DNA of 64,000 nt, from NCBI GenBank assembly GCA_021741355.1, contig JAIOXZ010000001.1:62001-126000 (forward strand). Reading direction: 5' to 3'. The notes beneath the pieces are model-generated. The model made no database searches. It saw only the letters and a program-made list of their open reading frames with translations, and had not been told where the DNA came from. Of the stretch, positions 27,447-62,529 are shown in pieces (position 1 is the stretch's first letter; every line of letters begins with the position of its first letter). The stretch is from Caulobacter sp. (GTDB lineage: Bacteria > Pseudomonadota > Alphaproteobacteria > Caulobacterales > Caulobacteraceae). Made by a program: the position numbers and the translations under genes.

Positions 27447-28385
27447 TTAACCGTGGGTCCAGCCGAGACGATCGAGCACGAGCGGCGCACCGCCGGACAA
27501 GGCCGTGACGCCGGCGCCTTCGGCGAAGGCTCCGACAACGGTCAGCGCTTCGGGGACCGGTTGGTCCGCCACCAGCGCACAGACGAGCTCGTAGTCGTCG
27601 CCGCCCGTGGCCAGTGCGAGCAGCGCGTCGGTCCGCGACGGCTGCGCGGCCAGCCAGGCCATTCCCTCTGCCGAGAGGGGTATGCGGTCCAGATCGATGG
27701 CGACCGCGCAACCGCTCGCCTTGGCCAGATGGCCGGCGTCCGCCAGCAGTCCGTCAGAGATGTCGGCCGCCGCCCTCGCGATGCCCCTCGTCAGGTCTGT
27801 GAGATCGGTGCGAGGGCGCGGCAGGCGGTAGCGCTCGGCGAGCCGGGCTGAATCGATCTCGCCGCGCGCCGCCTTCAGCCCGAGCCAGCCGTCGCCGATG
27901 GGCCCGCTGACCGCCAGCAGGTCGCCCGGACGGGCGCCGCGACGCAACACCGCCCTGCCCTGCGGAACCCAGCCCAACAGCGTCGCGGTCAGCGTCAGGG
28001 GCCCGGGCGTCGATACGGTGTCGCCCCCGAGCAGGGTCAGGCCGTAGGCCGCGCCGTCCGCCGCGAGCCCCCGTGCGAACAGTTCGCGCTCGGCCCAGTT
28101 CGTGCCGATCGGCCAGGCCGTGGTCAGGAAATAGCCGTACGGCTCGGCGCCCTTGGCGGCGAGGTCCGACAGGTTCACCCGCAGCAGCTTGCGGGCCACC
28201 AGGTCGAGCGGATCATCGGCCAGGAAATGCACACCGGCGACCATGGCGTCCTTGGTGACGACAAGGTCAAAGCCCGGCCGCGACGCAATCACCGCTGCGT
28301 CATCGAGCAGATCGATCGCTTCCGGCGCGCCCCGGGTCAGGGGCCTCAGAAGCCGCGCGATCCAGTCGAACTCACCCCCGGGCAT
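27447..28385 (-). CDS. thiL: Thiamine-monophosphate kinase
   Basis: This 312-residue ATP-grasp-like PurM-fold enzyme phosphorylates thiamine monophosphate to the cofactor TPP. Motifs: [46 protein letters not shown] and [15 protein letters not shown]. The ATG at 28385 lies 14 bases inside the end of nusB, which fits the family start (GEFDWI); a longer frame overlapping nusB was rejected. Confidence 0.93.
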
Positions 28386-28902
28386 CGCGGGCGATGCCGT
28401 CGAGGGCGCCGTTGACGAAGCCGGGCTCGGGGCCCTCGAAGAAGGACTTGGCGATCTCGACATACTCGTCGATGGCCACCTCGACCGGGACGTCCGGTCG
28501 GTGCATCAATTCCCAGCCGCCGGCCCGCAGGATCGCCCGCAGCGTCGCGTCGACCCGCTCCAGCCGCCAGTTGACCGCCAGCCGGTGCGCGATGGCGCTG
28601 TCGATGGCCGCCTGCTCTCCGACCACGCCGTGGACCAGTTCGGAGAAGAAGACCTCGTCCGCCTCGGCCAGGGTCTCGCCCTCGAGGTCGCCGTCGAAGC
28701 GGTGATCGGTGAATTCGCGGACCACGGCATCCACGCCGGTTCCGGCCAGTTCCATCTGGTAGAGCGCCTGCACGGCGGCCAGGCGGGCCACGGTGCGGGC
28801 GCGCCGCGCCTTGGCGCTCAGCGGCGCGACCTTGCTGTCTGTCGCTGCGAGGAGCTTCTCATAGGCGTCGCGCAGCGACGCAGGCTTGCTTTCGCCGGTC
28901 AC
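28372..28902 (-). CDS. nusB: Transcription antitermination factor NusB
   Basis: This 176-residue helical protein binds boxA RNA with S10 for rRNA antitermination. The N-terminal [20 protein letters not shown] and C-terminal [19 protein letters not shown] followed by [13 protein letters not shown] are characteristic. It overlaps ribH by 4 bases and thiL by 14, making one translational unit. Confidence 0.94.
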
Positions 28903-29345
28903 TTGTCGGCCCCGAGCAGACGGCTGCGGATGCTGAGCACCTCGAGGCAGGCGCGCGCGGCGCCGCCGCCCTTGTCACCTTCCGCAACGCGGGCGCGGGC
29001 CCAGGCCTGCTCCTCGTCCTCGACGGTCAGGATGCCGTTGCCGATCGCCAGCCGCTTGCGCGTGGCCAGATCCATCAGCCCGCGCGAGGACTCATTGGAC
29101 ACGATCTCGAAATGATAGGTCTCGCCGCGGATCACGCAGCCCAGCGCCACATAGCCGTCGAAGCCGCCGGCCTTCTCGGCGATGGCGATGACCGCCGGGA
29201 TCTCCAGCGCGCCCGGCACCGTGATTACCTCGTACTCGGCTCCGACCGCCGTGATGGCGTCGGCCGCGCCCCGCAGGAGCTCGTCGGACAGCTCGGAATA
29301 GAACCGGCCTTCCACGATGAGAATGCGGACCTTGGCAGCGGACAT
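28899..29345 (-). CDS. ribH: 6,7-dimethyl-8-ribityllumazine synthase
   Basis: This 148-residue enzyme condenses the pyrimidine and the dihydroxybutanone phosphate in riboflavin synthesis. Substrate-site motifs are [17 protein letters not shown], the GALEIPAVI loop and [20 protein letters not shown]. All appear intact. It lies 3 bases after ribB. Confidence 0.95.
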
Positions 29346-29348
29346 GCG

Positions 29349-30470
29349 TTACTCCTTGGGCGTCGCGATGGGCTGGCGCCCGACGATCCTGAGCCCGTAA
29401 CCCTCGAGGGCGGCGGGTTTGAACGGACTGGAGGTAAGCAGGACCATTTCCCGCACCCCCAGGTCCAGCAGGATCTGCGCCCCCACTCCGTAGTCGCGGA
29501 TGGCGTTGTTCCGGTACTGGCTCCCCGCCGCATACTCCCCGCCGTAGCGTTCGGAAAGCCAGGCCGGGTTCGGATCGCGGATGAAAACAGCGACACCGGG
29601 GCCGTCATGCGCTCCGATCGCCCGCAGGGCGGCCGGCACATAGTCATGCCGCGCCCCGACGAAACCCAGCATGTCGGCGGCCAGATCGACCTGGTGCATC
29701 CGCACGAGGGTCGGCTTGTCGGCCTCGATCCGCCCCTTCACCAGCGCCACATGCTCGCAGCGGTCGATGGTGTTGCGGTAGACGATCATCCGGAAATCGC
29801 CGCCGTGGATGCTGGTGAACGGCGTCTCCAGCGCCCGCTCGACCTGGCGCTCCGTGCGACGGCGATAGGCGATCAGGTCGGCGATGGTGCCGATCTTCAG
29901 ACCATGCAACTGGGCGAAGGCGACCAGGTCCGGCAGACGGGCCATGGTCCCGTCGTCCTTCATGATCTCGCAGATCACTCCGGCGGGGTTCAGGCCCGCC
30001 AGGCGGGAGATGTCGATCGCCGCCTCGGTGTGGCCGGCGCGGACGAGCACGCCGCCGTCCCGCGCGACCAGCGGGAAGACGTGACCGGGCGAGACGATGT
30101 CGTCCGGGCCCTTGGTCGGGTCGATGGCGACGGCGACCGTGTGGGAGCGGTCATGGGCCGAGATGCCGGTGGTGACCCCTTCCTTCGCCTCGATCGAGAC
30201 GGTGAAGGCGGTGGTCATGCTCTCGCGGTTCTCGGCGGCCATCGGCGGCAGCCGCAGCTGGCGGGCGCGTTCATTGGTGATGCTCAGGCAGATCAGGCCC
30301 CGGGCGTGCCGGGCCATGAAGTTGATCTGGTCGGGGGTCGCGAACTGCGCGGGGATGATCACATCCCCCTCGTTCTCGCGGTCCTCGGCGTCCACGAGGA
30401 TGTAGGGCCGCCCGTTGCGGGCGTCCTCGATGATGTCCTCGATGGGAGAGATGGGGCTGTCTTCGGTCAT
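29349..30470 (-). CDS. ribB: 3,4-dihydroxy-2-butanone-4-phosphate synthase with degenerate GTP cyclohydrolase II domain (RibBX type)
   Basis: Residues ~15-205 are an intact DHBP synthase: DAEDRENEGDVIIP, then DRSHTVAVAIDP and VLVRAGHTEAAIDISRLAG. Residues ~212-373 follow the RibA fold (VRMHQVDLAADMLG, AQILLDLGVREMVLLTSSP) but lack the zinc cysteines of GTP cyclohydrolase II: where active enzymes have the pattern C-x2-G-x7-C-x-C, this one has no cysteine. The protein therefore probably supplies only the four-carbon unit. Such fused variants are known in Proteobacteria (called RibBX). Its length of 373 is normal for the fusion. Confidence 0.9.
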   Translation of the reverse strand: MTEDSPISPIEDIIEDARNGRPYILVDAEDRENEGDVIIPAQFATPDQINFMARHARGLICLSITNERARQLRLPPMAAENRESMTTAFTVSIEAKEGVTTGISAHDRSHTVAVAIDPTKGPDDIVSPGHVFPLVARDGGVLVRAGHTEAAIDISRLAGLNPAGVICEIMKDDGTMARLPDLVAFAQLHGLKIGTIADLIAYRRRTERQVERALETPFTSIHGGDFRMIVYRNTIDRCEHVALVKGRIEADKPTLVRMHQVDLAADMLGFVGARHDYVPAALRAIGAHDGPGVAVFIRDPNPAWLSERYGGEYAAGSQYRNNAIRDYGVGAQILLDLGVREMVLLTSSPFKPAALEGYGLRIVGRQPIATPKE

Positions 30471-30482
30471 TCAGATACCGCT

Positions 30483-30572
30483 CATCCCGGCGCAGGCCGG
30501 GACCCAGGTGTTTTTGTCGTCAGGCTTCGAGGCTCTCGGAAAAAAGCCTGGGTCCCGGCCTGCGCCGGGATG
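30483..30572. repeat. Palindromic repeat, family 2, inside the riboflavin operon
   Basis: Two 26-base arms (30483-30508 and 30547-30572; beginning CATCCCGGCGCAGG and ending CCTGCGCCGGGATG) are perfect inverted complements around a 38-base centre, and the pairing continues weakly into a T-run/A-run. It fills the 119-base gap between ribE and ribB. A shorter relative is at 59817-59902. Confidence 0.85.
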
Positions 30573-30589
30573 CTCGGAGGAGGGATACA

Positions 30590-31180
30590 TCACGCGGTCT
30601 CCTGCCACCGGGCGAGGTAGCGCGCCAGCATGTCGATCTCGAGATTGACCTTTGAGCCGACGGTCAGCCGGCCGAGCGTGGTCACATCCCAGGTGTGGGG
30701 AATGATGTTCAGGCCGAAGACATCGTCCTCGACCGCGTTGACCGTCAGGCTGACGCCCTCGACGGCGATCGAGCCCTTCGGCGCGATCAGACGATGGAGC
30801 GGGCGCGGCGCGCGAATCCGAAGGCGGTGCGAGCCGCCTTCGGCGTCCACCGACAGCACCTCGCCCAGGCCGTCGACGTGGCCTGACACGATATGGCCGC
30901 CCATTTCGTCACCCAGTTTCGCGGCGCGCTCCAGGTTGACCGGCGCGCCCTCGGACCACTGGTCGAGCGTCGTCAGGGACAGGGTCTCGGCCGAGACCTC
31001 GACCGCGAACCAGCCCTCGCCCTTCTCAACCACCGTGAGGCAGCAACCGGAATGGGAGATCGACGCGCCGAGGTCGACGCTCTCCAGGTCATAGGCGGTC
31101 TCGATCTCGTAGCGGCGGTCGCGGTTCGTCTCGCGCACGCTGCGCACCCGGCCGACATCGGTGACTATTCCGGTGAACAT
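30590..31180 (-). CDS. ribE: Riboflavin synthase alpha subunit
   Basis: This 196-residue enzyme has two lumazine-binding barrels: MFTGIVTDVG with SHSGCCLTVV in the first, GHIVSGHVDGLGEV with GVSLTVNAVED in the second. It dismutates two lumazines to riboflavin. The ATG at 31180 overlaps the RibD-like stop by one base (TGATG), and the start of the first barrel coincides with it. Confidence 0.95.
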   Translation of the reverse strand: MFTGIVTDVGRVRSVRETNRDRRYEIETAYDLESVDLGASISHSGCCLTVVEKGEGWFAVEVSAETLSLTTLDQWSEGAPVNLERAAKLGDEMGGHIVSGHVDGLGEVLSVDAEGGSHRLRIRAPRPLHRLIAPKGSIAVEGVSLTVNAVEDDVFGLNIIPHTWDVTTLGRLTVGSKVNLEIDMLARYLARWQETA

Positions 31181-31869
31181 CAGGCCTTCCCGTAGCGCTC
31201 CCACAGATCGTCGCCGACCGTCTCTACGGCCAGCCGCCTGAAACGTGGGGCGGAGGCCAGATCTTTCAACACAAACGCGCCGATCGCCGGACGGCCCTCG
31301 TCACCGAGGATCATCGGCGCGCGGAACCATTCGATCTGATCGACCAGTCCGGCCGACAGAAAGCTCGCCGCCACCTGGCCACCGCCTTCGATCATCAGGT
31401 TCAGTCCCATGGCCCCGGCTGCCGGCTTGCCGAACCGCTCGACAAGTCGCCGGTCGAAGTCCGTCTGGAGCGCCTCGATAACCGCTTTAGGATCCGGACG
31501 GCCCTCATTCTGGGCCACTTGAATCACGGTGACCCCAGCGTCAGTCAAACGGTTGTTTGGATTGTCGACCGTGATGACCACCGTCGGCAACCGTTCGGCC
31601 TCCCTGACCAGCTTCGACGTCAGCGGCAGCCGCTGCCGGCTGTCGAGCACCACGCGGACCGGCTGGATGCCGACGAAGCCCGGCAGGCGGACCGTGAGCT
31701 CGGGATCATCGGCGATCGCCGTATCGACCCCGACCAGGATCGCCTGATGCAGGGCGCGCAGGCGGTGGACCTCCTCACGCGCCTTCGGCCCGGTGATCCA
31801 TCGGCTCTCCCCCGATGCGGTGGCGATGCGACCGTCGAGCGAGGTGGCGAGCTTGAGCGTGACGCCCAG
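31180..31869 (-). CDS. Stand-alone pyrimidine reductase domain of RibD (deaminase domain missing)
   Basis: The frame encodes the RibD C-terminal reductase: VTLKLATSLDGRIAT, SRWITGPKAREEVHRLRA, AILVGVDTAIADDPELTVRLPG, NLMIEGGGQVAASFL. No deaminase domain (HAE/PCxxC motifs) precedes it, because the nrdR stop lies only 5 bases before the reductase begins. No ATG, GTG or TTG occurs in frame before residue 73. A CTG at 31867-31869 has GGAGGA six bases upstream and gives a 229-residue protein. If translation began at the GTG at 31653 the NADPH-site start would be lost. Other possibilities are a recent deletion or an assembly error. Confidence 0.75.
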   Translation of the reverse strand: MGVTLKLATSLDGRIATASGESRWITGPKAREEVHRLRALHQAILVGVDTAIADDPELTVRLPGFVGIQPVRVVLDSRQRLPLTSKLVREAERLPTVVITVDNPNNRLTDAGVTVIQVAQNEGRPDPKAVIEALQTDFDRRLVERFGKPAAGAMGLNLMIEGGGQVAASFLSAGLVDQIEWFRAPMILGDEGRPAIGAFVLKDLASAPRFRRLAVETVGDDLWERYGKA

Positions 31870-31871
31870 CG

Positions 31872-32339
31872 TCAGTCCTCCACGTCTTCGGCCAGGCCCT
31901 CGGCGCTGAGGAACTGGGCGAAGTCGTCCGTGTGGCGGAAGTCGCGATAGACCGAGGCGTAGCGGACGTAGGCCACGTCATCGAGCGCCTTGAGCGCCTT
32001 CATGACCATCTCGCCGACCACGTTCGAGGCCAGTTCGGTCTCGCCCATGCTTTCGAGCTGCCGGACGATGCCGTTGACCAGCCGGTCGAGCCGCTCGGCG
32101 TCGATCGGCCGCTTGCGGGTGGCGATGGAGATCGAGCGGACCAGCTTCTCGCGGTCGAACGGCGCGCGGCGGCCTGAGCGCTTGACGATCGTCAGCTCAC
32201 GCAGTTGCACCCGCTCAAAGGTGGTGAACCGGCCGCCGCACTCGGGGCAGAGACGGCGACGCCGGATGGCCGCGCCGTCTTCCGACGGGCGGCTATCCTT
32301 CACCTGGCTTTCCATGTGACCACAGAACGGGCAGCGCAT
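31872..32339 (-). CDS. nrdR: Transcriptional repressor NrdR
   Basis: This 155-residue ATP/dATP-sensing repressor of ribonucleotide reductase genes has an N-terminal zinc ribbon ([17 protein letters not shown]...LCPECGGRF, four cysteines) and an ATP-cone ([18 protein letters not shown]). The length is normal and it ends EDVED, so the deletion in the next gene does not affect it. NrdR boxes were not identified here. Confidence 0.95.
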
Positions 32340-61696: not shown

Positions 61697-62529
61697 TTCA
61701 GGACGTTGAAGAACCGGCTCGGACGCGCGTCGAGGAACCAGGTCCAGGGCTTGAACAGCGACGCCTTGCCGTTCCACGACAGCAGGATGATCCGGGCATG
61801 ACCCACCAGGTTTTCCTGCGGCACGAAGCCCACGCCGCTGGCTTCCGGCGCGACCCGGCTGTCCAGCGAGTTGTCGCGGTTGTCGCCCATGAAGAAATAG
61901 TGGCCTTCGGGCACGATATAGACGCCGGTGTCGTCCACATCACCGCGCGGACCGCAGTCGTAGGTCTCGTAGGCGCGGCTATCCATGTTGGTTTCGCGGA
62001 AGCGCTGCACGGTCGAGCCGTTCCAGCAGGTGCCGGGATCGCCCGGGCCGTCATAGACGCGGGCGTTGGCCTTGCCGTTCACAAAGACCACGCCGGCCTT
62101 CACCTGGACCCGGTCGCCCGGCAGGCCCATCAGGCGCTTGATGTAGTCGGTCTGATTGTCCGACGGCAGCTTGAAGACGATGATGTCGCCGCGCTCGGGT
62201 GCGCTGGCGAAGATCCGGCCCTTGAACAGCGGCGGGCTGAACGGGATCGAGTGCTTGCTGTAGCCGTAGCTGAACTTCGAGACGATGATGTAGTCGCCCT
62301 TCAGCAGGTTCGGCTCCATCGACGCCGAGGGAATTGTGAACGGCTGGAACAGGAAGATCCGCAGCACCAGCGCGATCAGCAGGGCGTAGACGACGGTCTT
62401 GACGATCTCGATCGTCTCGCTGACCGCGTCGACGCCGGCTTGCGGCGGTGTCTCGTCATGAGGCGTGTCGAGCGCCAGCGGCCTGGCATCAGCGATGGTC
62501 TCGGCCTGCGGTTCGGCGGCGTCAGTCAT
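61693..62529 (-). CDS. lepB: Signal peptidase I, second tandem copy
   Basis: This 278-residue membrane protease has a TM helix near 45-61. The Ser/Lys dyad is S70 in [11 protein letters not shown] and K131 in [22 protein letters not shown] is the conserved late motif. The N-terminal ~40 residues are acidic and differ from the first copy. It removes signal peptides of exported proteins. Confidence 0.94.

Follow-up and report, generated by a model that had tools for sequence, protein, structure and literature searches.

A split RibD in Caulobacter and the probable CTG start of its reductase half next to nrdR

The riboflavin gene row and its reductase frame

The window, by which we mean the whole 64,000-nucleotide stretch of Caulobacter sp. 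DNA analysed here (positions 62,001 to 126,000 of contig JAIOXZ010000001.1, assembly GCA_021741355.1), carries on its minus strand the gene row glyA-nrdR-reductase-ribE-ribBA-ribH-nusB, with the following features:

glyA, minus strand: first gene of the row
31872..32339, minus strand: nrdR, the upstream gene (PF03477 and PF22811 matches)
31876..31881, minus strand: GGAGGA, a possible Shine-Dalgarno site within the end of nrdR, its GGAGG core 7 nt before the CTG at 31869-31867
31873..31875, minus strand: second in-frame CTG, overlapping the nrdR stop (CTGA); a rival start, judged unlikely
31872..31874, minus strand: nrdR stop codon TGA, 2 nt before the CTG at 31869-31867
31867..31869, minus strand: proposed reductase start codon CTG, aligned with ATG, GTG, TTG or CTG in 24 of 24 same-genus genomes
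31180..31869, minus strand: RibD reductase gene (TIGR00227, PF01872, 3zpc alignment, dN/dS of codons 3-72)
30590..31180, minus strand: ribE, riboflavin synthase (PF00677, two stretches)
29349..30470, minus strand: ribBA (open reading frame; homologues at the same place in other alphaproteobacterial rib loci)
28899..29345, minus strand: ribH, lumazine synthase (PF00885 match at G000:C9:90929-91330, 4.9e-43)
28372..28902, minus strand: nusB, end of the conserved gene row (open reading frame; homologues after ribH in relatives)

The gene between nrdR and ribE, whose stop codon overlaps the ribE ATG as TGATG, is a predicted riboflavin reductase on the basis of profile and structure-chain matches. 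It matches the RibD reductase domain over its full length and above the curated cut-offs, both with PF01872 (148.1 bits against a cut-off of 24.1, positions 3-194 of 197) and with TIGR00227 (159.4 bits against 150.15, from residue 3 of the protein), and its best solved match is RibD 3zpc, residues 174-370 of which align with the reductase, again from its residue 3. By contrast, it covers only positions 143-340 of the bifunctional RibD profile (TIGR00326), with a score of 140.1 bits that lies below the cut-off of 156.35.

On the minus strand the open reductase frame extends from 31977 down to 31180, and the first ATG, GTG or TTG within it is the GTG at 31653, which is codon 73 when the CTG at 31869-31867 is counted as codon 1. 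A preliminary description of this DNA had reported a frame without ATG, GTG or TTG before residue 73, preceded by a GGAGGA six bases before the CTG, and its coordinates and statements proved correct on recheck; it had also placed the beginning of the reductase domain five bases after the nrdR stop, and this is indeed where the GGC codon that follows the CTG starts. The second CTG at 31875-31873, overlapping the nrdR stop, is absent from that description. Codons 3-72, which lie ahead of any canonical start, are coding and under strong purifying selection, with dN/dS values of 0.02-0.12 in 15 of 15 pairs drawn from six clade members (four with CTG and two with TTG); together with the profile match from residue 3, these values bear out the earlier claim that the protein is conserved from its first codons. 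Moreover, a VTLKLATSLDGRIA block is invariant in 12 aligned same-genus proteins, and a protein begun at GTG 31653 would be without it. Judged by conserved coding sequence that precedes any canonical in-frame start, the reductase would belong among CTG-initiated genes.

Start codons at the nrdR-reductase junction

A search of 75 Caulobacter genomes yielded 24 with a full-length stand-alone reductase. Two codons ahead of the conserved VTLKLATSLDGRIA, at what we call the -2 codon, each of these 24 has an NTG: ATG in 10, TTG in nine, CTG in four and GTG in one. Since a purely internal codon is not expected to vary over just the four NTGs, we take this position to be the probable start site. The CTG genomes are that of the window (G000), G011, G028 and G079, four separate assemblies, and the reductase of G011 can start only at the two CTGs or at an ACG, as its frame has a TGA nine codons ahead of the conserved V. 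Among the best 80 of 552 named loci, examined from 15 codons before to one codon after this V, 76 have an ATG, GTG or TTG near it, one (L170) is a fused RibD and three (L092-L094) have no such codon; these three are the same genomes as G011, G028 and G079 and add no further CTG cases. Beyond the genus the site of the start is less constant, with NTG at the -2 codon in 35 of these best 80 loci, and three of them whose records are titled Caulobacter (L105, L106, L109) have an ATG at -5 or -8. We infer initiation at CTG 31869-31867, with the end of nrdR as its leader; the preliminary description had proposed such a start, and the proposal is supported by the NTG kept in all 24 genomes and by the CTG of four separate assemblies.

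A start at the upstream CTG (31875-31873), which would lengthen the protein by two residues, is in our estimate unlikely. The CTGA is found in four of four CTG genomes, whose own sequences are compatible with initiation there; it resembles the common ATGA overlap, and coupled genes very often overlap by 4 nt (PMC10666635). However, this triplet is part of the Asp-stop of nrdR itself, and in TTG relatives it reads TGA (G034), CTA (G036) or, out of register, ACT (G092), while the -2 codon stays NTG. It also lies only 1 nt after the GGAGG, whereas the usual Shine-Dalgarno spacing is wider.

Very improbable, too, is a reductase without a start of its own, made as an extension of NrdR by ribosomes that shift to the -1 frame at the nrdR stop. 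Although the reductase frame of the window is -1 relative to nrdR and open upstream to 31977, close relatives have 7, 8 or 9 nt between the nrdR stop and the conserved V, and among them the reductase follows the nrdR stop in frame 0 (G034) or +1 (G092) with the NTG kept. As the NTG persists through these changes of frame relative to nrdR, a frameshift out of nrdR is not a conserved feature. The in-frame stop at -9 in G011 likewise opposes such a fusion, inspection of GACGTGGAGGACTGA by eye reveals no slippery heptamer, and on the aligned sequences a conserved NrdR-reductase frameshift fusion is excluded. We hold it equally improbable that the gene has lost its start and is decaying in an organism that imports riboflavin or uses another reductase. 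Loss does occur in the genus, where 28 of the 75 genomes, some of them incomplete, have no RibE match and 27 of these 28 no RibD match (E 1e-13), but the strong purifying selection seen in each of the 15 clade pairs opposes decay, and the window genome has RibE and RibH, has kept a deaminase and has no other RibD_C. Finally, an assembly or base-calling error that hides an ATG, GTG or TTG, or the collapsed deaminase segment that the preliminary description had envisaged, is hardly credible: the window comes from a 75-contig draft genome and the three other CTG genomes are metagenome-assembled, but the same tight junction and the same CTG recur in these separate assemblies and the deaminase is a full gene elsewhere.

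Initiation at CTG 31869-31867 has to be weighed against what is known of CTG starts and of Shine-Dalgarno sites. Pairing of the 20 nt upstream of this CTG with the anti-Shine-Dalgarno has a duplex energy of -9.3 kcal/mol, compared to a 1% quantile of -10.3 and a 5% quantile of -8.1 for 3000 random 20-mers of the window. As 75.4% of C. crescentus starts are without a Shine-Dalgarno site and the chance rate of having one is 19.2% (PMC4117421), the GGAGG counts for little and lends weak support. CUG accounts for 0.024% of bacterial initiation codons and in E. coli reporters yields 0.86% of AUG (PMC11497404), an output that would be low for a biosynthetic enzyme unless coupling helps and that to this extent would count against a CTG start; likewise, one of 2,468 ancestral UUG starts in 36 genome triplets had switched to CUG (PMC5622118). 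On the other side, ribosome profiling and mass spectrometry in C. crescentus put CTG at 0.7% of identified start codons (PMC4117421). The C. crescentus genes of that study share genus and codon with the reductase, but here one gene is compared across species and its start is predicted from sequence, and in contrast to the mapped set the reductase CTG sits where relatives have TTG, GTG or ATG, beside a tightly linked upstream gene.

A clade-specific, CTG-tolerant initiator tRNA provides no explanation, the nine tRNAs read being alike in CTG and TTG species. The pattern search for this tRNA gave a match in 9 of 12 genomes, one tRNA per genome being read, and no match in G011, G079 and G092 of these 12; G064 has a second copy and G086 a second, non-identical match, and the tRNA of the window genome lies at L220 1463-1539 (minus strand, G000:C53). 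All nine, including those of the CTG species G000 and G028, have the anticodon stem TCAGG/CCTGA with A-U as third pair, as opposed to the third G-C pair of the E. coli initiator tRNA. They keep the G30-C40 pair, a change of which relaxes CUG discrimination (PMC11497404).

The separate deaminase gene and the history of the split

The window genome has a single RibD_C match in the genome search, and on another contig (C4:10377-10754) it has a separate RibD-type deaminase of ~149 aa that matches positions 1-127 of TIGR00326 with 124.6 bits. Its assignment to the RibD type stands on the HAEEQAL and LEPCGARSSGTAPC motifs and on RibD as nearest relatives, HAE and PC..PC being the zinc-site motifs of this type of deaminase. 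Seven of its nine solved matches are RibD-like (for example 2o7p, 2e-29), and the top one, 8dq9, carries the depositors' name 3-dehydroquinate dehydratase I. A PF18785 match, considered as a second system, was rejected as it is the same deaminase gene. The deaminase was found in 23 of the 24 reductase genomes, the exception being G092 (73% complete), and also in G024 (83% complete), where the reductase was not found. Deaminase loci were fetched from four families, 18 in all: 13 from among the remaining 22 split genomes of the genus, that of G024, and four of families f2-f4. In each of the 18 the gene adjoins gpmA on the same strand, at most about 210 nt from the end of the gpmA match, and it likewise adjoins gpmA in the window genome. 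The preliminary description was thus right in that the deaminase is absent from the nrdR-ribE locus, but the domain is not lost and persists as a separate gene.

The two halves are also separate in relatives of the same order, namely in six of six sampled genomes of family f2, six of six of f3 and three of six of f4, the remaining f4 genomes being fused-like (G039), with a weak match only (G047) or unclear (G055). By contrast, RibD is fused in six of six sampled genomes of family f5. A sample of the class comprised 57 genomes, including two (G000 and G144) from the family of the window; 46 gave a match, and the 30 best-scoring loci were read. In 30 of 30 of these best-scoring loci of other Alphaproteobacteria, a fused RibD follows nrdR. 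A deaminase tree, which also took in 10 of 21 fused Caulobacter copies and six f5 copies, placed the 18 split copies in one group beside the 30 fused alphaproteobacterial ones (support 95/72). The simplest history would be one old fission, after which the deaminase half moved beside gpmA and the reductase half stayed; such a history would rest on the deaminase tree, in which support for the key branch is not strong and the bootstrap had yet to settle. The fused RibD genes of f5 lie away from any nrdR and, in the tree, separate from the 30 fused copies of other Alphaproteobacteria; they may have been replaced by transfer.

The two Caulobacter proteins are homologues of the two halves of the bifunctional RibD/RibG (TIGR00326). 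Compared to this enzyme, the reductase gene has the same position behind nrdR, but there are two genes at two places and not one fused gene. Separate deaminase and reductase proteins are also represented by archaeal 2azn and yeast RIB7 (reductases) and by fungal Rib2 (deaminase), and the archaeal and fungal splits are probably independent. Bacterial RibD chains give the Caulobacter reductase a higher score than 2azn does, and the RibD matches of the deaminase are bacterial. In E. coli, turnover could still be detected when separate enzymes replaced bifunctional RibD (PMC3668577), so the split does not stand in the way of function. Among the papers listed, titles and abstract openings yielded no published split RibD in Caulobacter, most subscription journals being outside their coverage.

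The state of the riboflavin genes varies within the genus (L246-L251): 24 of the 75 genomes have the native reductase and RibE, and 21 have a distant fused RibD and RibE. The two distant fused RibD clusters that were read (G062 and G005) also contain ribBA and ribH, with no nrdR nearby. Among the 60 genomes that are at least 90% complete, 17 are without RibE and 60 of 60 have RibH, and the four native loci that were read (G002, G003, G026 and G062) run glyA-nrdR-ribH-nusB with no match to the reductase, ribE or ribBA. This variation suggests that the riboflavin pathway was lost in the genus and later regained in some species; Caulobacter sp. K31 has been grown with added riboflavin (PMC5590869).

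Age of the CTG and its probable coupling to nrdR

In trees built from nrdR, the reductase (its start codon left out) and ribE of the 24 genomes, a clade of ten (support 71; 89/98) unites the four CTG genomes and six with TTG, and within it G011 (CTG) and G092 (TTG) are sisters (support 92; 94/99). The best tree has three changes between CTG and other starts, while the AU test does not reject a tree with all CTG genomes in one clade of their own (p-AU 0.15). We infer that CTG replaced TTG, by a T to C change of the first base, within one clade. The CTG is also younger than the RibD split, as it is confined to one Caulobacter clade and relatives start with TTG, GTG or ATG. The preliminary description had supposed that domain loss exposed the CTG, a supposition that we abandon: the split, present in three further families, predates it. 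An old split did not expose a CTG that occurs in one clade, side by side with TTG in the six remaining members.

The reading that we prefer, and regard as highly probable, is that RibD is split, that the reductase is translated from CTG 31869-31867 with the aid of nrdR, and that this CTG is not due to the split. The deaminase half of the window Caulobacter resides beside gpmA on another contig, and under this reading the reductase half has kept its ancestral place in the row from glyA to nusB. The CTG would be a poor start on its own, and ribosomes that end nrdR 2 nt upstream, together with the GGAGG at the end of nrdR, would deliver initiation to it. In one clade it would have taken over from a TTG start, with no part played by the split.

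Translation of nrdR probably feeds the reductase start, so that the CTG is aided by coupling. In tested gene pairs a distance of ~20 nt almost abolishes termination-reinitiation coupling (PMC10666635); the 2 nt from the nrdR stop to the CTG place nrdR and the reductase within the distance of a translationally coupled pair and make such coupling plausible. With the coupled pairs of that study the junction has in common a start 2 nt after the stop and a possible ribosome-binding site in the upstream gene, but it differs in that the start is CTG and in that coupling is here predicted from the sequence. Across the 24 same-genus genomes, the start is TTG or CTG in 12 of 12 with a gap of 1-3 nt, ATG, GTG and TTG in the three with a gap of 4 nt, and ATG in nine of nine with a gap of at least 6 nt. 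This relation fits a coupling that relaxes the need for a strong start, as a suggestion and not as a test. It is weakened because it represents few events, the 12 tight genomes being one 11-genome clade and G036, and because close or overlapping junctions beyond the genus often have ATG or GTG (L102, L104, L107, L144 and L161 among the best 80 of 552 loci).

In five of the ATG genomes with a gap of at least 6 nt (G014, G019, G074, G078 and G081), the spacer between nrdR and the reductase is 150-181 nt long and holds related, paired palindromes. Paired palindromes also fill the ribE-ribBA spacer of the window (30483-30590), and the spacer elements of the five relatives are related to them. A broader reading, by which tight coupling to nrdR frees the identity of the start codon from selection (TTG to CTG and back within the clade) and lineages separated by palindromes have ATG, is possible, but we consider it doubtful.

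CTG starts in Caulobacter and monofunctional RibD halves are of known kinds, and what is new, and modestly interesting, is a comparative and testable instance. A start caller restricted to ATG, GTG and TTG would begin the reductase gene at GTG 31653, 72 codons late, or drop it, and the riboflavin pathway would then look broken though it is intact. The junctions of the genus offer ATG, GTG, TTG and CTG at the same position and at varied distances from nrdR, a series in which one could measure how much coupling adds to a weak start. Were the broader reading true, the locus would be a natural experiment on how far translational coupling replaces start-codon strength, and the CTG may then set a useful low dose of the reductase. 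For the Caulobacterales, the case shows that RibD was split with both halves kept.
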